Source of the DNA: Thermoguttaceae bacterium
GTDB taxonomy: Bacteria; Planctomycetota; Planctomycetia; Pirellulales; Thermoguttaceae
Direction: 5' to 3'
Length of the DNA: 32,230 nt
Assembly: GCA_029975295.1 (NCBI GenBank)
Contig: JARKPK010000091.1
Coordinates: 1 to 32,230, forward strand
This document shows, piece by piece, positions 5,471 through 23,289 of the stretch. The notes under the pieces were generated by a model. The model was not told the origin of the DNA, did not search any database, and worked only from the letters and a program-made list of their open reading frames with translations. Numbering within the stretch: the first letter of the stretch is position 1; every line of letters begins with the position of its first letter. A program made the translations under genes and the position numbers.

Positions 5471-5691
5471 TGGCCGTGGCAGACGACGCGCATTCGATCG
5501 AATTGAACGGTCGGCCGCATCCGCTGCCCCGGCCGATCACTGTGGCCGAGTTGCTGGCTGAGGTCGGCATCGCCGATCGTCCCGTGGCCGTCGAGCTCAA
5601 CGGGGAAGTTGTGCCCAAGGCCGAGCACGATCGGCGGCGGCTCGGGCCGGGCGATCGCGTGGAGATTGTCACCTTTGTGGGCGGCGGGTGA
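5470..5691 (+). CDS. thiS: Sulfur carrier protein ThiS
   Basis: 73 residues with the ubiquitin-like beta-grasp pattern of Thi[19 protein letters not shown], then [15 protein letters not shown], then the [13 protein letters not shown] ending. The C-terminal Gly-Gly is the site that is adenylated and thiocarboxylated, and the thiocarboxylate donates sulfur to ThiG for the thiazole ring. An ATG at 5470 is used; an in-frame GTG one codon earlier (5467) is possible. It overlaps the upstream gene by one base and is followed after 73 bases by thiG. No TPP riboswitch motif was seen upstream of the operon. Other thiamine genes (thiF, thiH or thiO, thiC, thiE) are not in this window. Confidence 0.9.
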
Positions 5692-5764
5692 CGGGCGGCC
5701 GCATCGCTCGGCCCCGCGGCAAACGCCGGATCAACCCGCCCTTCTCGGACAAAGACGACCACTG

Positions 5765-6589
5765 ATGAACGACAAACCGCTTCGAATCGGCAGCCATCAG
5801 TTTCACAGCCGTTTGATTGTCGGAACGGGGAAATACGCTAATTACGACCTGATGCGCGATTGTTTGGCCGAGGCCGGCGCCGAGTGCATCACCGTGGCCG
5901 TGCGCCGCGAGCGGCTATACGACACGCAGGGACGGAGCCTGCTCGACTATATCGACACCAAGCGATACACCATCTTGCCGAATACGGCTGGTTGCTTTTC
6001 GGCCGCCGACGCTGTTCGCGTGGCGCGATTGGGACGCGAACTGCTCTCGCAGATGGGCAATCCCGGGGCCAACTGGGTCAAGCTGGAATGCTTGGGCGAT
6101 GCGAAGACGTTGTTGCCCAATCCGATCGACACGCTCCGCGCAACGGAAGAACTGGTGGCCGACGGCTTCGAGGTGCTGGTCTACACCAGCGACGATCCGA
6201 TCGTGGCCCTGAAACTCAAACAGGCCGGCGCCGCCAGCGTCATGCCTGCCGGCAGCCCGATCGGCTCGGGCCAAGGAGTGCTGAACCCCAACAGCATTCG
6301 CATCTGTCTGGAGTATCTCAAAGACGGCGATCCCGATTATCCCGTGATCGTCGATGCCGGAGTGGGAACGGCCAGCGATGTGACCGCCGCGATGGAACTG
6401 GGCGTCGACGGCATTCTTCTGAACACGGGCATCGCTCATGCCCAAGATCCGTTGCGCATGGCCCGCGCCATGCGGTTGGGGGCCGAGGCGGGCCGCCAAG
6501 CCTTCCTGGCCGGTCGCATACCGAAGAAGCTCTACGCCACAGCCAGCAGCCCTTGGGAAGGCGCGATCACGGCGCAACCGGGGCGGTGA
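5765..6589 (+). CDS. thiG: Thiazole synthase ThiG
   Basis: 274 residues, slightly longer than typical ThiG (about 255). The (beta/alpha)8 enzyme condenses 1-deoxy-D-xylulose 5-phosphate, the ThiS thiocarboxylate and dehydroglycine into the thiazole phosphate. Key parts seen: [10 protein letters not shown] near residue 15, the Schiff-base lysine K106 in [19 protein letters not shown], the phosphate loop [12 protein letters not shown], and GVGTASDV plus [11 protein letters not shown] in the C-terminal half. The start ATG at 5765 follows ThiS and matches the family N terminus; the longer upstream in-frame reading is rejected. It converges on hypA with only 25 bases between stops. Confidence 0.95.
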
Positions 6590-6597
6590 AGCCGCCC
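6581..6597. terminator. Hairpin shared between thiG and hypA ends
   Basis: GGGCGG (6581-6586) and CCGCCC (6592-6597) form a 6-bp GC stem with a 5-base loop; the loop contains most of the thiG stop codon (6587-6589). It lies in the 25-base gap between convergent genes, so it could serve both transcripts. There is no T tract. Confidence 0.35.
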
Positions 6598-6614
6598 GCC
6601 GGCGAGCCCTCAAG

Positions 6615-6965
6615 TCAATCGTCTTCCAACTCGATGCTCTCCAGCAGCAGTTCGCGCCCGCCTTCGATCATGATCTGATCGGAGCCGCAAAGCGGGCATC
6701 CGGGCGGCCACTGGTCGATCTCGCTGCGCCCTCCACATTGCCCGCACACGCACACGGCCTTGGGGCGACGGATTTCGACCAGGGCCTTTTCCACCAGCGT
6801 GCCCGGAGCCAACAGATCGAGGGCGAACTTCAGCGATTCGTGATGCACACCGCTGAGCCGCCCGATGCTCAGTTCGACTTTCAATACGCGGCCCTTTCGC
6901 CCGGCGCGATGGACCTCGCGCTCGACTTGTTCGATCAGGGCTTCGGCAATCGAAAGCTCATGCAT
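6615..6965 (-). CDS. hypA: Hydrogenase nickel incorporation protein HypA
   Basis: 116 residues, the usual HypA length. The N terminus MHELSIAEALIEQVE carries the invariant His2 that binds nickel. The zinc finger is C74-x2-C77 (CGQC) and C90-x2-C93 (CPLC), with an extra C72. HypA works with HypB to insert Ni into the large subunit of NiFe hydrogenase, and in some bacteria also feeds urease. The C terminus ends in acidic residues. Its start overlaps the end of a 68-residue ORF upstream by 8 bases. It sits in the same direction as a hydrogenase maturation protease, but no hydrogenase subunits are in the window. Confidence 0.95.
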   Translation of the reverse strand: MHELSIAEALIEQVEREVHRAGRKGRVLKVELSIGRLSGVHHESLKFALDLLAPGTLVEKALVEIRRPKAVCVCGQCGGRSEIDQWPPGCPLCGSDQIMIEGGRELLLESIELEDD

Positions 6966-7164
6966 CGGCGAACTGCCTGTCGTGGGCGAAGCCGGAGATC
7001 GAACAGAGAACCCGATCCACCGGGGAAATCATTTCGAACGAAACCCGATGCCGCCCCAGCCGCACGATGGCGGGAATCTGCCGTCGCCCAAAAGCTGATG
7101 CCGCGTTTCCTCGGTGTCGGGCCGCGATGGGCGCCCCCGGTGCGCGATCGGCCGCATCCCCCAT
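6958..7164 (-). CDS. Doubtful 68-residue ORF between CNB gene and hypA
   Basis: ATG at 7164 opens a frame that ends at 6958, overlapping the hypA start by 8 bases, a junction typical of coupled genes. The product is Ala/Arg-rich at the N terminus and ends with the more protein-like FEMISPVDRVLCSISGFAHD. I compared it with HypC (which starts MCLAIPG and is about 75-85 residues) and it does not match. There is no good ribosome binding site. It may be a real accessory gene, a decayed hypC, or non-coding. Without it the 317 bases between the CNB gene and hypA hold nothing. Confidence 0.25.
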   Translation of the reverse strand: MGDAADRAPGAPIAARHRGNAASAFGRRQIPAIVRLGRHRVSFEMISPVDRVLCSISGFAHDRQFADA

Positions 7165-7282
7165 GGCCTCGATCAGTTCGGCCCCGGGGGGAACCGACCG
7201 CGAAACAACTCAACGATGATCGACCCGCTGGTGGGCAACGTCCCGCAGCTCGGGCGATCGGTTGCGCGGCGCACCGGGCCGA

Positions 7283-7729
7283 TCAATCAATGGCGGCCAG
7301 TTGAACCCGGGCGCCTTCGAGCCGATGGGCCAGCAATTTGGCCACCTGCGTAAGCAGTCGATAGCCCAGCAACGGATCGCGCTCGCACAGGTCTCGAAGC
7401 TTCGCAGCATCGATCGCGGCCAGTTCAAGCCCTTGGACGGCTGTGGCGATGGCCGTATAGCGATACGGTTCGACAAGGGCCGACCAGCCCAGCAAGTCGC
7501 CGGCCACCAGATTATCGACCGTGCGAAGTTCGCCGTTGCCCAGTTCGTACTGAATGCTCACTTCGCCCTTGAGAATCACCGACAGATGCGCGGCAGGGTC
7601 GCCGCCACGGAACATGATCGTTCCGGCCGGCACGCGTTTCTCCTCGGCCAACATGGCGAGCTGTTTGACGCTTTCGTCGCTGATCTGGGCAAAGTAGGGA
7701 TACCGTCGCAAGACCTCGGGCGAAATCAT
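7283..7729 (-). CDS. Stand-alone cyclic-nucleotide-binding domain protein
   Basis: 148 residues, one CNB domain of the Crp/Fnr or PKA-regulatory kind with no DNA-binding helix-turn-helix. The domain runs almost the full length: RYPYFAQISDESVKQLA, then GGDPAAHLSVILKGEVSI, then the phosphate-binding cassette around GDLLGWSALVEPYRYTA. The usual Glu of the cassette (G-E) is replaced by Trp, so cyclic nucleotide binding is uncertain; this GWSAL variant is known from proteins encoded next to NiFe hydrogenases. ATG at 7729 is chosen because GGGGAG precedes it by 7 bases; a TTG at 7807 also exists and overlaps the protease stop. It probably senses a ligand or a redox partner for the hydrogenase system. 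Confidence 0.85.
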   Translation of the reverse strand: MISPEVLRRYPYFAQISDESVKQLAMLAEEKRVPAGTIMFRGGDPAAHLSVILKGEVSIQYELGNGELRTVDNLVAGDLLGWSALVEPYRYTAIATAVQGLELAAIDAAKLRDLCERDPLLGYRLLTQVAKLLAHRLEGARVQLAAID

Positions 7730-7803
7730 GTTGGAACTCCCCAAAAAAATGTTGTTCTCGCCGACCGCTTCTCCGGAAACGACCGTCGGCACGCCGATCG
7801 GCG

Positions 7804-8271
7804 TCAAACGTCAAACCCGTCGAGCAAATCAATCACGGTCTCCACGGCCCGCGGCAAGGCGGCAGCCACGGCAGGCGTGCAATCGTCGCCGAACGTGAGT
7901 ATATCGACCACCTCGATCCCGACAAGCCGAATCCGTTCGTCGTCGGGCAGTTTGAGGCCGGCTTGCCGTCCGAACGCCAACGCCGTGGGCAAATTGACGT
8001 CGTGGGCCGAGGCGCTTCGCTGCGTGGGAATGGCCGCGGGCGTCAGCACATGGATCGTGCCCGGCTCGGCGCCGGTTTGAATGGCGTCGATCACCACCGC
8101 CCGGTCGAAACCCACCAGTCGCTCCATCAAACGCAGCCCCCCCCAGTAGTCTTCGTCCACCTCGACGCCGGCGCGATCGGCAAGCCTGCTCCGCAACTGT
8201 TCGGCAACGCGCAGCCCGATGCTGTCGTCGCGCACAATCGGGTTTCCCAAGCCTAGAACGAGTGTCTTCAT
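7804..8271 (-). CDS. NiFe hydrogenase maturation endopeptidase (HyaD/HybD/HycI family)
   Basis: 155 residues. These proteases cut the C-terminal tail of the hydrogenase large subunit after nickel insertion. The motif GLGNPIVRDDSIG is at the N terminus (D16 at the place of HybD Glu16), D62 lies in VVIDAIQTG and H90 in SAHDVNLPTAL, giving the three nickel ligands expected from HybD. The ATG at 8271 has no clear Shine-Dalgarno sequence. It is first in the minus-strand set with the CNB gene and hypA. The subgroup cannot be decided without the large subunit, which is not in this window. Confidence 0.9.
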   Translation of the reverse strand: MKTLVLGLGNPIVRDDSIGLRVAEQLRSRLADRAGVEVDEDYWGGLRLMERLVGFDRAVVIDAIQTGAEPGTIHVLTPAAIPTQRSASAHDVNLPTALAFGRQAGLKLPDDERIRLVGIEVVDILTFGDDCTPAVAAALPRAVETVIDLLDGFDV

Positions 8272-8684
8272 CGTCTGTTGTTGGATTGGCCCCGCAAAGC
8301 GCCGAACTCAAAGCGGCCCGCTGCGCATTCAACTTCGCTCCATCGCCCAACCAGAACAACCGCTGCTGCCATTTTGCCGATCCCTCTTGTGGCTGCTTGC
8401 CGCCCCATCGGCCTGAGACTATTATGGCGGCATAGACGCCGGCGTTCGAGCCCGGGCCCTCCCCAAAAGCTGTCGCCATCGGGCGCTGCGAAACGGCGGA
8501 TGCCGGACGAGCCGTCAGGGGCGCCCTCCATCCTGCCCGCTGTTGACAGACCAACCAACCGCCGAAACCAACAGCCCGAAGATCGTCGAGCCGCTGGGCA
8601 GGCGATCCTCGGCCCTGCGTTGTGCCTCGTTCGAATCGGAAGAAAAAACCTGAAGTTTTCAAGCTACCGAGGAGTCGCTGGCCC
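8272..8684. other. Divergent intergenic region without gene
   Basis: 413 bases between the protease start (minus) and the DUF6807 gene (plus). Several open frames exist, but they are Arg/Pro/Ser-rich, lack ribosome binding sites and match nothing I know. I looked for a hydrogenase remnant (CxxC motifs of a large subunit or FeS cluster motifs) and saw none. Confidence 0.4.
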
Positions 8685-9620
8685 ATGTCCTGCCGATTGA
8701 AGCTTCTTGTCGTCGCGTTGATCTGCCAAGCGCCTCTGTTGGCTGCCGCGGCTGAGGTGGTCATTGAGCGATCCAACGAAAAGGCCACGGTGCGTTTGGG
8801 CGGCGAGGTATTCACCGAATATCTCACCTCGTCGGGCAGCAAACCGATCTGTTGGCCGATTATCGCCCCCGGCGGAGTGCATGCAACGCGCAGCTACCCG
8901 ATGGGTCAAAAGCCGAACGAGAAGCAAGACCACATCCATCATCGCTCGCTTTGGTTTACGCATGGCGCCGTCAACGGAATCGACTTTTGGGCCGAAGGAA
9001 AAGCCGCCTGCGGCAAAACGGTTCATCAGCGGTTTATCGAGGCTGGTCCCAACGAAATCGTCAGCGAGAACCTGTGGCAGGGGCCCGACGGCACGAAAGT
9101 CTGCGACGATCGCCGCTCGCTGCGTTTCGGCGGCGACAAGGTGTCGCGCTGGATCGATTTCGACATAACGATCACGGCGAACTACGGCCCGGTCACCTTC
9201 GGCGACACGAAGGAGGGAACGTTCGGCGTCCGCGTAGCCGAGTCGATGAAGGTCGATGCCAAACAAGGCGGTCGGATCATCAACAGCGAAGGAAGAACCG
9301 ACGGCGATGCTTGGGGCAAACAGGCCTCGTGGGTCGATTATCATGGCCCCGCCGACGGCCAAACGATTGGGGTCGCCATATTCAATCACCCCTCAAGTTT
9401 CCGCTACCCGACTTATTGGCACGTCCGGACGTATGGATTGTTTGCCGCCAATCCTTTCGGTGTGCGCGATTTTACCGGCAATAAGCAGGCTGACGGTTCG
9501 CACACGATCCCTCAGGGCCAATCGATCACGCTCCGCTATCGAGTCTATCTGCACCAGGGAGACGAGCGCGAAGGCAAGGTGGCCGAGGCGTTCAAGACCT
9601 ACTGTTCCACGGTCCAATAG
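8685..9620 (+). CDS. Secreted DUF6807 (PmoA-like) protein
   Basis: 311 residues. The N terminus (MSCRLKLLVVALICQAPLLA) is a signal peptide with a cut near AAA-EV. The body matches the DUF6807/PmoA group: TEYLTSSGSKPICWPIIAPGG, DHIHHRSLWFTHGAVNGIDFW (His-rich motif), a beta-rich middle with ESMKVD and GGRIINSEGRTDGDAWG, and VAIFNHPSSFRYPTYWHVR. The name PmoA is historical and does not mean methane monooxygenase. The family is abundant in planctomycetes and is usually linked to carbohydrate use, with no proven activity. GAGGAG-like sequence about 10 bases before ATG 8685 fixes the start. Confidence 0.88.
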   Translation: MSCRLKLLVVALICQAPLLAAAAEVVIERSNEKATVRLGGEVFTEYLTSSGSKPICWPIIAPGGVHATRSYPMGQKPNEKQDHIHHRSLWFTHGAVNGIDFWAEGKAACGKTVHQRFIEAGPNEIVSENLWQGPDGTKVCDDRRSLRFGGDKVSRWIDFDITITANYGPVTFGDTKEGTFGVRVAESMKVDAKQGGRIINSEGRTDGDAWGKQASWVDYHGPADGQTIGVAIFNHPSSFRYPTYWHVRTYGLFAANPFGVRDFTGNKQADGSHTIPQGQSITLRYRVYLHQGDEREGKVAEAFKTYCSTVQ

Positions 9621-10424: not shown

Positions 10425-10582
10425 CGGTGTAGGCAATGGGCGACCGGCAGCACCCCTCTTCGTCGCCTTGGCGAGGGCAGATGAGCAGTCGGACCATAGG
10501 GCCGTCGGTCAGAGGAACAATCGCCCGCCAATGGGATTGTCGGCAGGGCGTATCGCACGTAACAGACAGGGAGGTTGTTCGT

Positions 10583-10771
10583 ATGCTGGTGCTTTCACGG
10601 CGCGAAAGCGAACGGATTCGACTGGGAGATGGGATCGTGGTTACGGTCGTTCGGATCTCCGGCGATCGGGTGCGGTTGGGGATCGAGGCGCCCGAAAACG
10701 TCGCCGTGGTCCGAGACGAGTTGACCCCGAAGCAGACCGAGCGGCAGTCGGCCGATCGCCCGGCCGCCTAG
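10583..10771 (+). CDS. csrA: Carbon storage regulator CsrA
   Basis: 62 residues. CsrA is a dimeric RNA-binding protein that binds GGA motifs near ribosome binding sites and changes translation. Sequence seen: MLVLSRRESERIRLGDGIVVTVVRI, then RLGIEAPENVAVVRDEL with the RNA-contacting L4 and R44. The tail (TERQSADRPAA) is short. AGGGAGG about 10 bases upstream fixes the ATG at 10583 against a longer in-frame reading from 10436. No small regulatory RNA with multiple GGA loops was identified in the window. Confidence 0.95.
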   Translation: MLVLSRRESERIRLGDGIVVTVVRISGDRVRLGIEAPENVAVVRDELTPKQTERQSADRPAA

Positions 10772-12198: not shown

Positions 12199-12311
12199 TC
12201 GATTGCTCGAAAATGGCCGTTGCCGACAGCCGCCGACCATCGTACGACAGAAGAAGCTCTTTCGTCTGAATGGAGCAACCGATTTATCCGACAAGACGAC
12301 GCTGACGATCG

Positions 12312-13382
12312 ATGTGGCAAGGGGTTTTCGGACACGACCGAGTTGTCGAGCAATTTCGCCGGGCGCTGACGCGCGGGCGATTGGCGGCGGGCTTTCTCTT
12401 CGTCGGGCCGTCGGGCATCGGCAAACGGCTGTTTGCGCGGCGGCTGGCGCAGGCGTTGCTGTGCGGGCGGTCGGGCGAATCGGCGCTTTCGCCGTGCGGC
12501 ATCTGCGAAAGCTGCGTTCAGGCCGCCGCCGGCAGTCATCCCGACATCATCGAGGTGGCCAAGCCGGCAGATCGATCATTCATTCCGCTGGAGTTGCTTA
12601 TCGGCGACAAGGAACACCGGGGCCGGCAGGGACTTTGCTACGAGCTGTCGTTGCGTCCGTTTTTTGGGCGGCGCAAAGTCGCTTTGATTGACGACGCTGA
12701 CGCCCTCAACGCCGAGGGCGCGAATAGCCTGTTAAAAACCCTGGAAGAGCCGCCGCCGGGAGCCGTTCTCATTCTGATTAGCGTCAGCCCGGCCAGACAG
12801 TTGCCGACGATCCGCTCGCGGTGTCAGATCGTGCCGTTTTTTCCGCTTTCGCCCGAAGAAGTCCAGTCGATCTTGCTTGATCGCAAACTGATCGACGATT
12901 TGCCCATGGCGCAGCGCATCGCGTTCTTCTGCGGCGGCAGCGTCGAGCGCGCGTTGGAGTTGAGCGACCCGAGGATTTGGGAGTTCCGTCGTTCGTGGGC
13001 GGCAGGGCTGTCCGAGGCCCGCATCGACAGCGTGGAATGGGCGGCGCGGATTGGGCAGTTTGTCGAGGCGGCCGGCAAAGAAGCGTCCGCCCGGCGCGCC
13101 TGCCTGCGTCAAGTGATCGGCTTTGCCGCCGACTACTACCGCGATCTGCTGCGGGCGGCCTATGCAACGGCGCCGTCGTCGGCGGCAGGCGATGCCGATC
13201 GGCACTGGCAAGCAGCCGTGGCGAAGGGCGTTGCCGAGGCCCGAGCGCTTTACGGCGAAGCATGGGTCGATTCGGCCGCGGAACGGCTCGATCTTTGCCT
13301 GACCGCACGCGAGGCTCTCGATCGGAATGCGAACCAAACGACGTTGATCGAGGCATGGCTCGACAGTCTAGCCGATCGATGA
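12312..13382 (+). CDS. holB: DNA polymerase III delta prime subunit (clamp loader)
   Basis: 356 residues. The protein is part of the clamp loader that opens the sliding clamp. Seen: Walker A GPSGIGKR (32-39, K38), the four-cysteine zinc module C51, C62, C65, C68 (CGICESC), Walker B VALIDDAD (123-130), KTLEEPP (142-148) and the SRC motif (169-171, Ser-Arg-Cys) typical of DnaX/HolB proteins. The C-terminal third is a helical collar-type domain. It follows yjbQ rather than tmk, the partner in many bacteria. No Shine-Dalgarno sequence is visible before the ATG. Confidence 0.9.
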   Translation: MWQGVFGHDRVVEQFRRALTRGRLAAGFLFVGPSGIGKRLFARRLAQALLCGRSGESALSPCGICESCVQAAAGSHPDIIEVAKPADRSFIPLELLIGDKEHRGRQGLCYELSLRPFFGRRKVALIDDADALNAEGANSLLKTLEEPPPGAVLILISVSPARQLPTIRSRCQIVPFFPLSPEEVQSILLDRKLIDDLPMAQRIAFFCGGSVERALELSDPRIWEFRRSWAAGLSEARIDSVEWAARIGQFVEAAGKEASARRACLRQVIGFAADYYRDLLRAAYATAPSSAAGDADRHWQAAVAKGVAEARALYGEAWVDSAAERLDLCLTAREALDRNANQTTLIEAWLDSLADR

Positions 13383-17820: not shown

Positions 17821-18456
17821 ATGTCCGACCCGGCGCAACTTTACGATGCCATTCTCACCGGCGATGCCAAACGTGCCGAATCAGTCACTCGGGCGGCACT
17901 GGAAGCCAAGGTCGATCCGAACGAGCTGATCCGCCAGTACATGGTTCCGGCAATGGACGAGGTGGGCCGGCGTTTCGAATGCAACGACTACTTCGTGCCC
18001 GAATTGCTCATCGCCGCCCGGGCCATGAAGACCGCGCTGGAACTGATTACCCCGCATTTGGCCGGGACCGCAGCCCAACGCGCCGGGCGCGTAGTGATCG
18101 GCACCGTGCAAGGCGATCTGCACGATATCGGCAAGAATCTTGTCGCCTCGATGCTTGAAGGCGGGGGATTCGAGGTGATCGATCTCGGCGTTGACGTTCC
18201 GGCCGAAAAGTTCGTCGAGGCCGCCCGCGAGAAGGAAGGGACCATCGTCGCGCTTTCGGCCCTGCTGACAACCACCATGAATATGATGAAGCGCGTGATC
18301 GAGGCGCTCGATGCGGCCGGTTTGCGATCGTCAACCAAAGTCATGATCGGCGGCGCGCCGGTCACGCAGCAGTTCGCCGACGAAATCGGCGCCGACGGCT
18401 ATTCCGACAACGCCAGCGCGGCTGTTGCCCTGGCGCGAAAATTATCGGGCCAGTAG
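17821..18456 (+). CDS. Corrinoid (B12-binding) protein of the MtaC/MtbC type
   Basis: 211 residues. The N-terminal helical B12-binding-2 domain (about 1-85) is followed by the Rossmann-like B12 domain. The cobalt-ligating histidine is H101 in GDLHDIGKN, the DxHxxG motif, with ALSALLTTTM (145-153) and GGAP (177-180) completing the site. Such proteins carry a methyl group on cobalamin between a substrate methyltransferase and a tetrahydrofolate or coenzyme methyltransferase, in demethylation of methanol, methylamines, or methoxy compounds. No partner methyltransferase or ASKHA reactivator is in the window. GGAGAG is 6-10 bases before the ATG. Confidence 0.92.
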   Translation: MSDPAQLYDAILTGDAKRAESVTRAALEAKVDPNELIRQYMVPAMDEVGRRFECNDYFVPELLIAARAMKTALELITPHLAGTAAQRAGRVVIGTVQGDLHDIGKNLVASMLEGGGFEVIDLGVDVPAEKFVEAAREKEGTIVALSALLTTTMNMMKRVIEALDAAGLRSSTKVMIGGAPVTQQFADEIGADGYSDNASAAVALARKLSGQ

Positions 18457-18746
18457 TGGTTCGCTACGCGCAGTCTGCCCGCCTCGCACCCGACAAGCGG
18501 CTTCCCTAACCAGCGGCGATGGCGACGGCTGCGCGCACCGAAGGAAACGGCCCAACGACTGATGACCCCCGGAACACCGAAGGGCCCAAGCCCGGCAATC
18601 GAACGCAGCCGCAAGCCGATGAAGAATCAGGCCGTGTGAAGAACCGGCGTTGGGCTTTGAAACGCTGGCCCACCAGAAGGCGTCGCATTGTCCGGCCAAG
18701 CTCGCTCGTGCATCTGGGTCGAGTTGTCGAATCCGATGAACTGCCA

Positions 18747-18905
18747 CTAGAAGGCCACGCTTTGCCAGGCCAGGGCCGCCAAAGCGGCCAGCCAAAGCGT
18801 TTCGGCAACCAGAGCCACCGCCAGCAGCAGCGGCCGCTTGCGCCCGATGTTCCCAACCGGGCCGGCAGCGAATGCAACCGAGTTGTTCGGCAAAGCGTCG
18901 GTCAT
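18747..18905 (-). CDS. 52-residue membrane microprotein coupled to the Minf_1886 gene
   Basis: ATG at 18905 overlaps the TGA of the upstream gene (18902-18904) in an ATGA junction; the frame ends with TAG at 18747-18749. The first 23 residues are polar and end in a basic GRKRP, then one hydrophobic helix (about 25-47: LLLAVALVAETLWLAALAALAW) closes the protein. GGTGGA lies a few bases before the ATG. The basic flank predicts a cytoplasmic N terminus. Function unknown. The overlap, the ribosome binding site and the clean helix make it much more convincing than its length alone. Confidence 0.7.
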   Translation of the reverse strand: MTDALPNNSVAFAAGPVGNIGRKRPLLLAVALVAETLWLAALAALAWQSVAF

Positions 18906-19333
18906 GATTCCACCGCAAAGGGCTGGCGAAAGGCCTCGTCAAAGTCGAACACGTTGTCGAAATCTTCGCGCCGATCTTCAGCCGTTTTTCGCATCTGCCC
19001 AATCCGCAGCAAATTGAAGACGATCTCGCCGATGTCGCTGGTGCTGCGAATGCCCCACGAGTTGAGCACGGTCTTTGCCATCAGCCCGAACTGATCCATG
19101 GCAAGCTGGCGAACCGCCTCGCACAGTTCCTGGCCCGAGATATGACGTTCGACTTGGGCGGTTTCTTCCGTCGCACTGGGCTCGCATGCCGTTTCGCGTC
19201 CGTAGCCGAGCACCTCTTGGGCGTAGCTGAGCGATTCGAAAACGAAGGCATAGGCCTCGCGCCGGTATCGTCGATCTTCTCGAAGCAGTTGCGCCAACGC
19301 TTCCAAAGGGTTGAGCATGTCACGATGCGGCAT
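18902..19333 (-). CDS. Minf_1886 family protein
   Basis: 143 residues, cytoplasmic, no membrane segment. Seen: LLREDRRYRREAYAFVFESLSYAQ (about 17-40), a variable acidic loop, RHISGQELCEAVRQLAMDQFGLMAKTVLNSWGI (about 63-95) and DIGEIVFNLLRIGQMRKT. This is the signature of the Minf_1886 family, common in Planctomycetes and Verrucomicrobia, of unknown function. AGGA about 9 bases upstream supports the ATG at 19333. It lies 201 bases downstream of the RicT-like gene in the same direction and overlaps the microprotein gene. Confidence 0.88.
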   Translation of the reverse strand: MPHRDMLNPLEALAQLLREDRRYRREAYAFVFESLSYAQEVLGYGRETACEPSATEETAQVERHISGQELCEAVRQLAMDQFGLMAKTVLNSWGIRSTSDIGEIVFNLLRIGQMRKTAEDRREDFDNVFDFDEAFRQPFAVES

Positions 19334-19534
19334 GGCTGTTGTCCTGACCAGAACAAAACACGATTCTTGATCTTTGGATCGACACGATCGGGCACGGCCG
19401 ACGTTCCGCCCGAACCATCCGGCGGCCCGTCGATCGGCCTATCGACACACTCTCTTTTTGGCCCGTGCCATCGTTCGGCCAGAGCTGCCGTCAGGGGCCA
19501 TCGGAGTCGGCCGCTCCGAACGAGCCGGGTTGGT

Positions 19535-20494
19535 TCATGGGCTTTCGTCTTCACGGGTCCGGTCGGCCGGCATCTCGTCGGACGGACTGCTGCCGTCAGC
19601 GCTTTGGGCGTTTGGGTCGGGCGACGGGCGGCGGGCGGCGGGTGGTTGCGGGGGACGGCGATTGGGCTTGCCCCTACGTTCCGGCCGAGCAGGCTCGCGC
19701 GGCTCGCCGTTGCGCGGCCCCGGCCTGCCCTGCGGCGGCCGATCGGTTCCCGCCGTCGCGGCATCACGCGGCGCCAACTGCTCCGCCGACTCTCTCTCGG
19801 CAGCCGCCTTGGCCGCTTCGCGGGCCTGCCGGGCGGCTTCTTTGTGCAGTTCTTCGTAAACCTCGTATTCGTAGCGAAGGCAGCACTTCAGTCGCCCGCA
19901 CCGGCCCGAAATCTTCGTCGGATCGAGCGTCGCCTTCTGGAGTTTGGCCATCTTCATCGAAACCGGCGGCATTTGTACCAGATGGGTGTTGCAGCAAAGC
20001 GGCAGCCCGCAATCGGAGTAGATGCCCAGCAATTTCGCCTCGTCGCGAACGCCGATTTGCCGCATTTCGATCCGCGTTTGGAACTCGGAGGCCAGTGCGC
20101 GGACAAGCTCGCGGAAATCGACGCGGTTCTCGGCCAGGTAATAAACAACGATTCGTTCGCCGCCGAAGATATGTTCGACCATCACCAGCTTCATGTCGAG
20201 TCCAAGACGGGCGACGTGCTGGGCGCAGAGATCGAGCTCGCGGTCGGCCTGTTCGCGCAGTCGGCGTTCTTCGAGATGATCCTCGGCCGACATAGGGCGA
20301 AGCACCGGCCCTTCGACCGGGTTCTTCAGGTTCGCGCGAACCTCGGGCGACGCCTCGCAAAGGGTCAGGCCGGTTTCCAACCCGCGGTCGGTCCGCACAA
20401 TCACCGCCGCGCCTCGGCCGAGCGATTGGCCCTCTGGCACGCGAAACACCCCAAGAAATCGCATGGCGCCGTAGCGCACAACGTATTCAGGCAT
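19535..20494 (-). CDS. PSP1/RicT-like iron-sulfur protein
   Basis: 319 residues. The PSP1 domain covers about 1-230. Cysteines C162, C167, C168 and C199, C204, C205 (SDCGLPLCC and GRCGRLKCCLRYE) are those that hold FeS clusters in the B. subtilis RicT (YaaT) of the Y-complex, which activates RNase Y processing and phosphorelay. From about 230 a helical stretch (EAARQAREAAKAAAERE) leads into a Pro/Arg-rich, probably disordered tail of about 70 residues. RicA and RicF partners are not visible. The start at 20494 matches the family N terminus MPEYVVRYG. Confidence 0.9.
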   Translation of the reverse strand: MPEYVVRYGAMRFLGVFRVPEGQSLGRGAAVIVRTDRGLETGLTLCEASPEVRANLKNPVEGPVLRPMSAEDHLEERRLREQADRELDLCAQHVARLGLDMKLVMVEHIFGGERIVVYYLAENRVDFRELVRALASEFQTRIEMRQIGVRDEAKLLGIYSDCGLPLCCNTHLVQMPPVSMKMAKLQKATLDPTKISGRCGRLKCCLRYEYEVYEELHKEAARQAREAAKAAAERESAEQLAPRDAATAGTDRPPQGRPGPRNGEPREPARPERRGKPNRRPPQPPAARRPSPDPNAQSADGSSPSDEMPADRTREDESP

Positions 20495-20808
20495 GGTCAA
20501 CTCTAAGGCGCGTCCGCCGGAACGGTCGGCCCAAGGACCTTCCGATGGCAACGCGCCGCAGAATACTTATCGACAATGGTTTCGATCCACGCGAACCGAA
20601 CGGCCGCGCACATCGCTTCGTGATCTTCCCATCGGCAATGCCGAGTCCGGCTCACGCTTTTCCAATGAAAATCGGCCTTCCGTTAGCCGGCCTCTGAACA
20701 CCGCTTGTGTGAGGCAAAATAGTCAGGGCGAACAGTGTCAATATAACCCAATCTGCCGGCCCGCAACAGGAGCAAGCGGCCGTTCGTCTCTCGGCCCGGC
20801 TGAATGCC
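20495..20808. other. Spacer between the large secreted gene and ricT
   Basis: 314 bases without a gene. The centre (about 20690-20760) is AT-richer and could hold a promoter for the RicT-like gene, but no clear -35/-10 pair was found. No hairpin of note. Confidence 0.35.
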
Positions 20809-23289
20809 CTACTGGACGGGTGACAGGTAGAGCGTTCGGATGGAAACGTTGGTTTCGCGCGTCTGAACGATCAACAGGCACTCGCCGGCGGGCAAGTCGA
20901 TCGGCGAGGGCTCATTCGCCCGTTCGAAGCCCGCAGTCTGCCGCTGCCACGAGGGGCTTACTCGAAGGAGCCATTGGGCCTGAGGCAACTGGAAACCACG
21001 GCCCGAGACGTTTACGAAGAGCGAGTCGGATTGAGGGTTGGGCGCTTTGACTGTGGCCGAAAGCAGGTAGCGGCCCGCACGCGTCACCCGCAACGGCACA
21101 ACGATCATCCCGCGACCGCGCGGCGGATCGTCCGGCTGAACAACGTAGGCCCCATCCTCAGCGGTTTCCACAATCGTCATCCCCGGCAGCACCAGGCAAT
21201 CGGCAGCGGGCAGGGTCAACTCGCGTTCGTCGAGCACGGCCGGGGCGTCGAGGGTGGGGCCCTTGAAGCTGCGCATCGGTTCGAGCGAAGCCAGCACGGG
21301 CCGGCCGACTTCGCGGCCGTCCAGTCCCAGAACCCCGTCATACGGCGCGGGAGTCAGCTCGATCCGCCCGCCGACGCCGAAAGGCTTCTCGACGCTGAGG
21401 GCCACCACCGACGTTTCTCCGGCGGCACGGCAAACGATGCGCGATTCGTCGGCCGCGATCTCCGCGTGGGCGTTCTCGAACCCCGATTGCCATGCGGCGA
21501 ACGCGGCATCATCGGCCAAGCCCGTGCCGATCCGCACCCATAGAACAATGTGCGGGTCGACGCGTTTATCCGCGGCACGATGATTGACCGTCAGCCGCAG
21601 CGCGCCGAATCGATTGCCGTCGTCCATCACGCGAATCGTCGCCGGCGCGCCGTCTTGCCGCGAGGCTGAAACAACGCGCAGGGCCGCCGCCGCCGAACCC
21701 CATCGTGCAAACACCGCCTGCCCCGCTTCCACCGGCGCGGTCGATGGCTGGTCGGGCACGCCGGGCGGCAGGTCGATTCGCCGGCGACCGATCCACAACC
21801 CGTCGGTCGGCGCGCGGAACACGAAGTGGCTCTGCACGTTGAACGTCTGCTCGTCGCTCAAGTCGGCCGGGCGATAAACGGCCACCGCCAACGCATCGCG
21901 GTCGGCCTGCGCGGCAGCCCAAAACGGAGTCAGATGCAACGCTTTCATGTGCCCGGCGGCTCCTCCGGTCGGATAGCGCCAAGTGCCGTACGGGTCCTGC
22001 CGCCCGTCGGCAATGAAATAGCATCGCGGCAGCCGCCGACTGCCGGGCAGATCGACTGTCAGCGGCATGTCTTGCCGCGCTGCCGGATAGCCCGCCCCGG
22101 CAACGCTTAGGGTGATGTCGGGATAAACCGCGTGGGTGCGGCTCTCGGCGTAGTTGATTCCCCATCGCTGCCGCACCAGCCGCGGCATGCGCTGATTCCA
22201 CTGACGAAGCCGTTCGGGCGGGCGGAAATCGTACATCGCCGAGTGCAACAGCTCGAACTCGTCCGTATCGCCCGGTGCAAGCCAACCTTGCAAGACGGCG
22301 TGCCCATCGACGGCCCCCTGCCCGCGGACGTAGTCGTAGCTTCGGCTGTGGGCGCCGGCCAGCCGTTCGCCCGGGGCAAACCAATTCAAGGCAATGTCGG
22401 TCCACAACAGTTCGAACAGCGCGGCGGCCTGGGCCTGCGCCTGCTCCGATCGGGCGAACTGGCGGATCGCCATCAGGCCGTTCAAATCGGGCGCATAGTA
22501 AGTCGGACTGACATACTCGGCCGTGCCGAATTGCCAGGTCCAAAGGCAGATTCCGTTCAACCGCAGCAGCCCTTCGTCCCGCAGCGAGCGATCTTCGAGC
22601 AGTTCGCCCAACACGATCAAATTGGACGCATTGAGAATGGCGATGTTGGTGTAGTTTACGGGCACGCGGTGACGACGGCAGCCCTCGGCCATCCGTTTCA
22701 GCAGGGTGTCGAGCTTGCCCAAAGCGTCGGCCGGCACAAAGGCCGCGTGCCGCAGCCGAATGGCCAAGGCGTCTTGGGCGCAGAACTCGACAGCGTTTCG
22801 ATCTGTCACTTGGCCATGCCGCCACGTCCACCAAAGGTTGCCGTACGCGTCGGAGGCCGGGTCGCGCTCTTGCATTTGTTCCAGCAGGTCGAACAGGCGG
22901 GCCAAGCGTTCCGGGCGCTTGCCCGACTCGCACAGCGCCAAGGCATAGGCGAACAGCACTCGGCTGGCCGTAGCCGGCGGAGGCTCGCCCTGGGCAATCT
23001 GCCGCCACAACCCCTCTTGCCGATCGGCGAACGCGGCCACGATGCCGGGCAATGTCCATGCCGTGCCTTTGCCCGAGGGCGGATCGGCGGCCATCGCCGC
23101 CGGTGCGAACAGCGCGAACAACAATGCCGCCGCCAATAGAGCAACGAAGGCGGCAACGGGCGAAGCGACGGCAGACAACAGCCCAGCGCGCGGCCGCCCG
23201 ACACTCGGCCTCTTAGCAAACGTCCGCCCAGCGAAGCGGGGCCCAAAAGCGCATACCCAACGCCGTATCACGAAAAGTTTCGATGGCAC
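20809..23289 (-). CDS. Large secreted protein, alpha-toroid/beta architecture suspected
   Basis: 826 residues from a GTG at 23289, which follows GAAAGGGG; ATG codons at 23415 and 23499 in the same frame are possible but would place the signal more than 90 residues from the start. A hydrophobic export signal (about 40-65) ends at a likely cut APAAMA. After it comes a helical part rich in Trp, with NLWWTWRHGQ (151-160), then SPTYYAPDLNGL, a central section with GINYAESRTHAVYPDIT and beta-rich C-terminal parts. This is the layout of polysaccharide lyases or heparinase-like proteins, but I do not recognise a family and no catalytic set is certain. Probably periplasmic or surface. Confidence 0.75.
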   Translation of the reverse strand: MPSKLFVIRRWVCAFGPRFAGRTFAKRPSVGRPRAGLLSAVASPVAAFVALLAAALLFALFAPAAMAADPPSGKGTAWTLPGIVAAFADRQEGLWRQIAQGEPPPATASRVLFAYALALCESGKRPERLARLFDLLEQMQERDPASDAYGNLWWTWRHGQVTDRNAVEFCAQDALAIRLRHAAFVPADALGKLDTLLKRMAEGCRRHRVPVNYTNIAILNASNLIVLGELLEDRSLRDEGLLRLNGICLWTWQFGTAEYVSPTYYAPDLNGLMAIRQFARSEQAQAQAAALFELLWTDIALNWFAPGERLAGAHSRSYDYVRGQGAVDGHAVLQGWLAPGDTDEFELLHSAMYDFRPPERLRQWNQRMPRLVRQRWGINYAESRTHAVYPDITLSVAGAGYPAARQDMPLTVDLPGSRRLPRCYFIADGRQDPYGTWRYPTGGAAGHMKALHLTPFWAAAQADRDALAVAVYRPADLSDEQTFNVQSHFVFRAPTDGLWIGRRRIDLPPGVPDQPSTAPVEAGQAVFARWGSAAAALRVVSASRQDGAPATIRVMDDGNRFGALRLTVNHRAADKRVDPHIVLWVRIGTGLADDAAFAAWQSGFENAHAEIAADESRIVCRAAGETSVVALSVEKPFGVGGRIELTPAPYDGVLGLDGREVGRPVLASLEPMRSFKGPTLDAPAVLDERELTLPAADCLVLPGMTIVETAEDGAYVVQPDDPPRGRGMIVVPLRVTRAGRYLLSATVKAPNPQSDSLFVNVSGRGFQLPQAQWLLRVSPSWQRQTAGFERANEPSPIDLPAGECLLIVQTRETNVSIRTLYLSPVQ

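Follow-up and report, generated by a model that had tools for sequence, protein, structure and literature searches.

A detached protease-CNB-hypA gene trio in a Thermoguttaceae bacterium and the group 3c [NiFe]-hydrogenase that it probably serves

The trio and its surroundings

The stretch of DNA analysed here, which we call the window, comprises bases 1-32230 (its full 32,230 nucleotides) of contig C36, part of a 5.01-Mb draft genome in 190 contigs with an estimated completeness of 99.99%. The features that concern us are the following:

7804..8271, minus strand: hydrogenase maturation endopeptidase of the HycI/HybD family (PF01750, TIGR00072, alignment with 1cfz)
probably 7283..7729 (listed frame 7283-7807), minus strand: CNB, a stand-alone cyclic-nucleotide-binding fold (PF00027, AlphaFold2)
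6966..7282, no strand: 317-nt gap between CNB and hypA, without a recognised gene (the ORF at 6935-7213 on the minus strand has no Pfam match)
6615..6965, minus strand: hypA, nickel metallochaperone (PF01155, TIGR00100)

The original prediction placed a protease, a CNB protein and hypA together on the minus strand, and this is borne out by Pfam matches over the curated cut-offs for all three. The protease matches HycI with an E value of 1.9e-12 (7804-8271) and scores 110.7 bits against TIGR00072 of NCBIfam, for which the cut-off is 47.45. Aligned with HybD (PDB 1cfz; E 5.4e-10), its D16, D62 and H90 fall on E16, D62 and H93, columns that we take to be the metal ligands of HybD; family score and ligand columns are both in place, with Asp substituting for Glu16 at the first of those columns. 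HypA matches PF01155 with an E value of 2.6e-28 (6615-6965) and reaches 89.7 bits against a cut-off of 88.1 in TIGR00100, and its translation has what is expected of a HypA, an N-terminal Met-His-Glu (MHE) and two CxxC motifs (CGQC and CPLC).

The CNB frame matches the cNMP_binding family with an E value of 2.8e-15 (PF00027, 7283-7807) and, as listed, overlaps the protease gene by 4 nt. Because tblastn matches in closer relatives start mostly at residues 18-27, with the conserved part running from about Met27, and because a Shine-Dalgarno-like GGGGAG lies 7 nt upstream of Met27, we place the start at 7729; the gene is then probably 7283-7729, encoding 148 aa from Met27. The gap of 317 nt between CNB and hypA compares with about 5 to 190 nt in the 14 adjacent pairs mapped in relatives.

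Both neighbours of the trio lie on the other strand, thiG ending 25 nt beyond hypA and a DUF6807 gene starting 350 nt beyond the protease, so the trio may be a transcription unit of its own. A promoter scan of 6500-8700 lends that reading no support: it gave no minus-strand promoter-like site upstream of the protease, and co-transcription of the three genes is therefore unproved. The sites that the scan did return are one on the minus strand at 7925-7898, inside the protease gene, and one on the plus strand at 8397-8425.

Elsewhere in the window, thiS and thiG adjoin at 5476-6589 on the plus strand, convergent with hypA. Also on the plus strand are a CsrA-family regulator (10436-10771, PF02599), a tRNA-Arg with anticodon ccg (22416-22500) and a corrinoid-type B12-binding protein (17821-18456, PF02310 and PF02607), presumably of the kind used with corrinoid methyltransferases. 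Two frames downstream of the last, 18519-19094 and 19142-20506, have no Pfam match.

The hydrogenase and the other maturation genes

A tblastn search of the window with the genome's own Mvh and Hdr proteins turned up no recognisable subunit of a hydrogenase and no remnant of one; the best match had an E value of 0.20, and a shuffled window, run as a control, gave 0.11. Nothing rose above the level of the shuffled control, and the idea of a subunit remnant in the window was rejected, in keeping with the earlier observation that large and small subunits and their remnants are missing here. The suggestion that the structural genes might lie outside also proved right. A single large-subunit gene occurs genome-wide, on contig C175, where two profile pieces fall in one 531-aa frame; the protein itself, MvhA, is 488 aa long and is encoded last in the row hdrC-hdrB-hdrA-mvhD-mvhG-mvhA. 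Profile matches along this row are to Oxidored_q6, FlpD, HdrA2-like, CCG and Fer4 proteins, which supply MvhG and MvhD together with HdrABC.

The identity of the large subunit had been named as the key missing fact, and the whole-genome search supplies it. The best PDB match of MvhA is the MvhA of the methanogen HdrABC-MvhAGD complex (5odc, E 5.6e-112), and, as in that system, genes for MvhG, MvhD and HdrABC stand in the same row. Both CxxC motifs are present, in RICGVC near residue 60 and in DPCFGC before H460. The C terminus is a tail of the cleavable type, with 28 residues following DPCFGCATH (SLPGQMPLEVTI...), and an LxGQMPL tail after DPCxxC is found in 30 of 30 distinct tails, the MvhA of C175 among them. 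Judged by sequence, the C175 hydrogenase is of group 3c, of the MvhAGD-HdrABC type. It differs from the methanogen complex in its bacterial host, in having a CNB alongside in many genomes of the family, and in subunits that fall under the NCBIfam methanogen-type cut-offs (375.6 of 800 bits for VhuA and 212.6 of 450 for VhuG), models that appear to be narrow ones for methanogens. A group 3c [NiFe]-hydrogenase has already been reported in Thermogutta terrifontis R1 (THTE_4311-4313), an organism probably of the same lineage; hypA, the protease and the CNB are not mentioned in the accessible part of that account (PMC5673643).

The remaining maturation genes are scattered. A row hypF-hypC-hypD-hypE lies on contig C15, with hypD and hypC present in one copy each, and hypB has one match over the cut-off, on C127, and two weaker matches on C145. 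The genome-wide searches placed hypA and the protease at one location each, the window copies, and a second copy of either was rejected on that result. The genome holds one full set of maturation and structural genes, spread over four places.

Gene order in relatives and a probable origin of the trio

The neighbours of homologous clusters, which the original prediction had proposed to list, were mapped, and in several relatives mvhA, protease, CNB and hypA are joined. The intact order mvhA-protease-CNB-hypA is found at L068 (=L159), L071, L075 (=L171), L080, L121, L124 and L180, with mvh genes upstream and hdr genes too where the contig reaches; at L068, L080 and L180 (a Pirellulaceae record) all nine genes stand in one row. 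Partial versions are also present: mvhA-protease-CNB with no match to hypA (L178 and, from Phycisphaerae, L181), mvhA-protease-hypA without a CNB (L123, L128, L131, L132), and loci at which the CNB stays and the protease is elsewhere (L077 [=L175] and L129). Detached groups like that of the window occur in G072, G309, G277 and G114, detached protease-CNB pairs, with no match to hypA, in G089 and G181, and in the one-contig genome G017 three widely separated places hold the protease, a CNB-hypA pair and mvhA, respectively. Loci found by way of the CNB come from Planctomycetota records in 25 of 26 cases, Thermoguttaceae and a Thermogutta sp. included, which makes Thermoguttaceae the probable family of the window's genome.

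Among 119 genomes of the family, MvhA is found in 38 and the protease in 38, with both in 34 (Fisher p 7e-21, a value that ignores shared descent); the corresponding figures for MvhA and a close CNB are 38, 29 and 26 (p 6e-14). These sets were read by eye and include end-of-contig fragments. MvhA is represented only by end-of-gene pieces of 33-48 residues in 3 of its 38 genomes (G079, G084, G305), while G299 and G169, with only pieces at 27-36% identity, were left off the MvhA list; a CNB counts as close from 120 bits upwards, the two-piece match of G181 being included as well, and weaker matches (e.g., G118, G102, G130) were likewise left out. MvhA lacks a protease match in 4 of 38 genomes (G054, G084, G326, G327), and the protease occurs without MvhA in 4 of 38 (G301, G304, G307, G328). 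One of these, G054, is 99% complete and carries MvhA copies and a CNB, yet has no match to a protease of the window type.

The split between structural and maturation genes appears, from gene order set on an mvhA tree of 39 rows, to be one that recurs in the family. Parsimony requires about 7 changes between the joined and the apart state; with the unlabelled rows counted against, there are 9 changes for 'apart' and 7 for 'attached' (bootstraps 7-9 and 5-7), and the starred branches force 4 and 2, respectively. The number of separations is only bounded by these figures, because the backbone of the tree is without resolution. Four of the 39 rows are unlabelled, their contigs ending within 700 bases, and the weak 'apart' rows are G310 (1220 bases left), G072b (1447 bases left) and G189b, a divergent copy that served as the outgroup and whose companion copy in the same genome is joined.

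We propose that the trio is a tail that has come away from the 3′ end of a group 3c [NiFe]-hydrogenase operon, hdrCBA-mvhDGA-protease-CNB-hypA, and that it serves the MvhA of C175; we put the probability of this reading at roughly 90%. What carries it are the gene identities, the single copies, the tail, the co-occurrence and the joined order in relatives. For the mutual action of the proteins and for the exact cut we draw on the known Hyp pathway. HypA, together with HypB from C127, would deliver nickel to MvhA, and HypFCDE from C15 would build the Fe(CN)2CO part; the window protease would then cut the 28-residue tail after the His of DPCFGCATH, after which the enzyme could close and assemble with MvhG, MvhD and HdrABC. 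The CNB would belong to the mature enzyme as a small subunit with an accessory or regulatory role, like that of HoxI in the soluble hydrogenase of Cupriavidus. The explanation is an ordinary one: a maturation cassette that stands apart from the structural operon, is present once and is very likely in use. The likely substrate of the window's lone protease is a large subunit of the Mvh type encoded on another contig, and genes can look stranded and yet be an enzyme's only maturation set.

Two other readings come from the original prediction, and neither fared well. One is that the trio is a relic or moonlighting nickel module, the hydrogenase having been lost or HypA having passed to another nickel enzyme such as urease. 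HypA proteins do serve urease in some bacteria, and the window's lack of a hydrogenase subunit would fit, but the large-subunit gene of the genome is complete, both CxxC motifs and the tail included, the trio genes are intact, no other hypA or protease was found, and the trio's proteins are roughly 45-77% identical in relatives. Urease as the client of HypA was rejected, since no urease alpha was found genome-wide by a search that was positive in 4 of 14 control genomes, and we regard the whole reading as very improbable. Equally hard to sustain is the other, a simple duplicate of a set that also stands with the structural genes: relative G303, with a protease by mvhA and another elsewhere, indicates that duplication occurs, but here hypA and the protease were each found once, the 8953 bases downstream of mvhA on C175 hold neither, and at the estimated completeness of this draft the loss of a further copy from the assembly is possible but unlikely.

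Three loci in relatives deserve separate mention. In G303 (L119 and L120) the second protease, cut by a contig end, lies with a CNB and hypA away from mvhA, and this genome is a possible intermediate between the joined and the split states. L157 (G072:C167) has, at 12229-12438 on the plus strand and about 1.1 kb after a complete mvhA, a free-standing second copy of the last 70 MvhA residues, tail included; it is reminiscent of VhuU, the piece that is split off in some methanogens, or may be the scar of a duplication. At L084 (G181:C184; 6902-7359, plus strand) the tblastn match to the CNB falls into two pieces that lie 11 nt from each other and differ in frame, and that gene is perhaps frameshifted.

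The CNB protein

The AlphaFold2 model of the CNB is a confident single CNB domain (pLDDT 92.6) that ends in a long helix, 119-146. The 148 predicted residues contain no DNA-binding domain such as regulators of the CRP/Fnr type carry at the C terminus. Its nearest solved structure is 3mdp (37% identity, TM 0.85/0.95, E 2.1e-24), which is Gmet_1532 of Geobacter metallireducens and is titled a putative cyclic nucleotide-binding protein; a literature search for 3mdp with Geobacter metallireducens found no paper naming it, and a HydDB/cNMP search found none. cAMP-binding CNB domains use a Glu and an Arg of the phosphate-binding cassette as contacts. In the register taken from a 2pqq alignment, the window CNB has Trp82 at the Glu column and Tyr91 at the Arg column, and in 37 of 37 aligned CNBs (27 of the 3c kind, the window's included, 6 of the 3b layout and 4 orphans) the former is W or F and the latter is never Arg, so that the usual cAMP contacts are missing throughout. 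CNBs outside that set have Leu (L181) or Ala (L203) at the Glu column.

The CNB is not confined to 3c clusters. At least 27 genomes that belong to the order but not to the family carry a homologue on the same strand as a large subunit and 2934-4249 nt upstream of it, pairs that were picked by eye; CNB matches with E <= 0.001 were found in 138 genomes outside the family, many of them weak, and genomes such as G048, G174 and G182 have a CNB match and no large subunit. Six of the outside-family loci were mapped, and in these the small and large subunits lie downstream and are 25-27% identical to Mvh; from their layout we take them to be group 3b. The CNB adjoins hypA in two of the six (L141 and L143, the protease lying next to hypA in L143) and stands apart from hypA and protease in four. 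The annotated cluster of Paraburkholderia pOLGA1 has much the same layout.

A parallel in gene order is offered by Cupriavidus necator H16, whose enzyme we take to be the HoxFUYH NAD-reducing hydrogenase, of group 3d. Its pHG1 (NC_005241) reads hoxF-hoxU-hoxY-hoxH-hoxW-hoxI-hypA-hypB-hypF, the last three being hypA2, hypB2 and hypF2, and thus has large subunit, protease, stand-alone CNB and hypA in the order seen here; in the pHG1 table hoxY, hoxW and hoxI are given by product only, and their gene names here follow PMC3702609 and general usage. According to the literature, HoxI sits as a homodimer on the diaphorase module, of which it is a subunit, and is an NADPH activation site (PMC3702609), the enzyme has the composition HoxHYFUI2 (PMC3189943), and HoxW removes 24 residues from HoxH (PMC3702609). 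Sequence likeness is low, with 23% identity over 119 aa between HoxW and the window protease and 24% over 116 aa between HoxI and the window CNB (18% in alignment A4), HoxI having Glu where the window protein has Trp82. The window CNB is nearer to the six 3b-layout CNBs (33-38%) and to 3mdp than to HoxI, and an identification with HoxI by sequence was rejected; by analogy of position, the CNB may nevertheless work like it. The accessible parts of two papers describe a CNB in a group 3b cluster, one of them naming it HoxI (PMC12319191, PMC13332983). Among the open-access papers searched we found none that reports a CNB next to a hydrogenase of group 3c, and the parts consulted of PMC11929135, PMC11406978, PMC5985405 and PMC8346489 hold nothing on a CNB beside a NiFe enzyme of the trio's kind.

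What might such a protein do? We think it more likely to be an accessory subunit than a maturation enzyme. A close CNB is missing from 12 of the 38 genomes with MvhA, of which five (G034, G043, G118, G122, G327) are at least 95% complete, so maturation in general does not depend on it. More specifically, and as a tentative suggestion only, it could be a regulatory subunit of the planctomycete MvhAGD-HdrABC enzyme, and of group 3b enzymes in relatives, that senses not cAMP but some different ligand, such as NADPH or a further redox nucleotide, and thereby gates a putatively electron-bifurcating hydrogenase. If so, the protease-CNB-hypA cassette would be a module common to group 3b, 3c and 3d hydrogenases. 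The gene neighbourhoods tie a previously unassigned stand-alone CNB-fold family, whose nearest structure bears only a putative name, to soluble group 3 hydrogenases. The alternative, to which we give similarly guarded credence, is that the CNB acts in maturation or regulates transcription of the operon instead of being a subunit. It does sit among maturation genes in 3c clusters, detached ones included, and beside hypA in the two 3b-layout operons; against this are its lack of a DNA-binding domain, its absence as a close match from those 12 MvhA genomes, its place away from hypA and protease in the other four 3b-layout operons, its position well upstream of the large subunit in the genomes outside the family, and at least three genomes of the family (G329, G185, G079) in which it stays by mvhA with the protease elsewhere.

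Four orphan homologues from genomes of the family (L145-L148; 32-37% identity) share the Trp motif and have no Mvh-like gene in the stretch examined. Their neighbours are CoA-ligase, PolX-like, CofH-like, riboflavin-synthesis, peptidase C25 or Na/H-exchanger genes, and since these four loci lie beside unrelated genes, the CNB family is not exclusive to hydrogenases.
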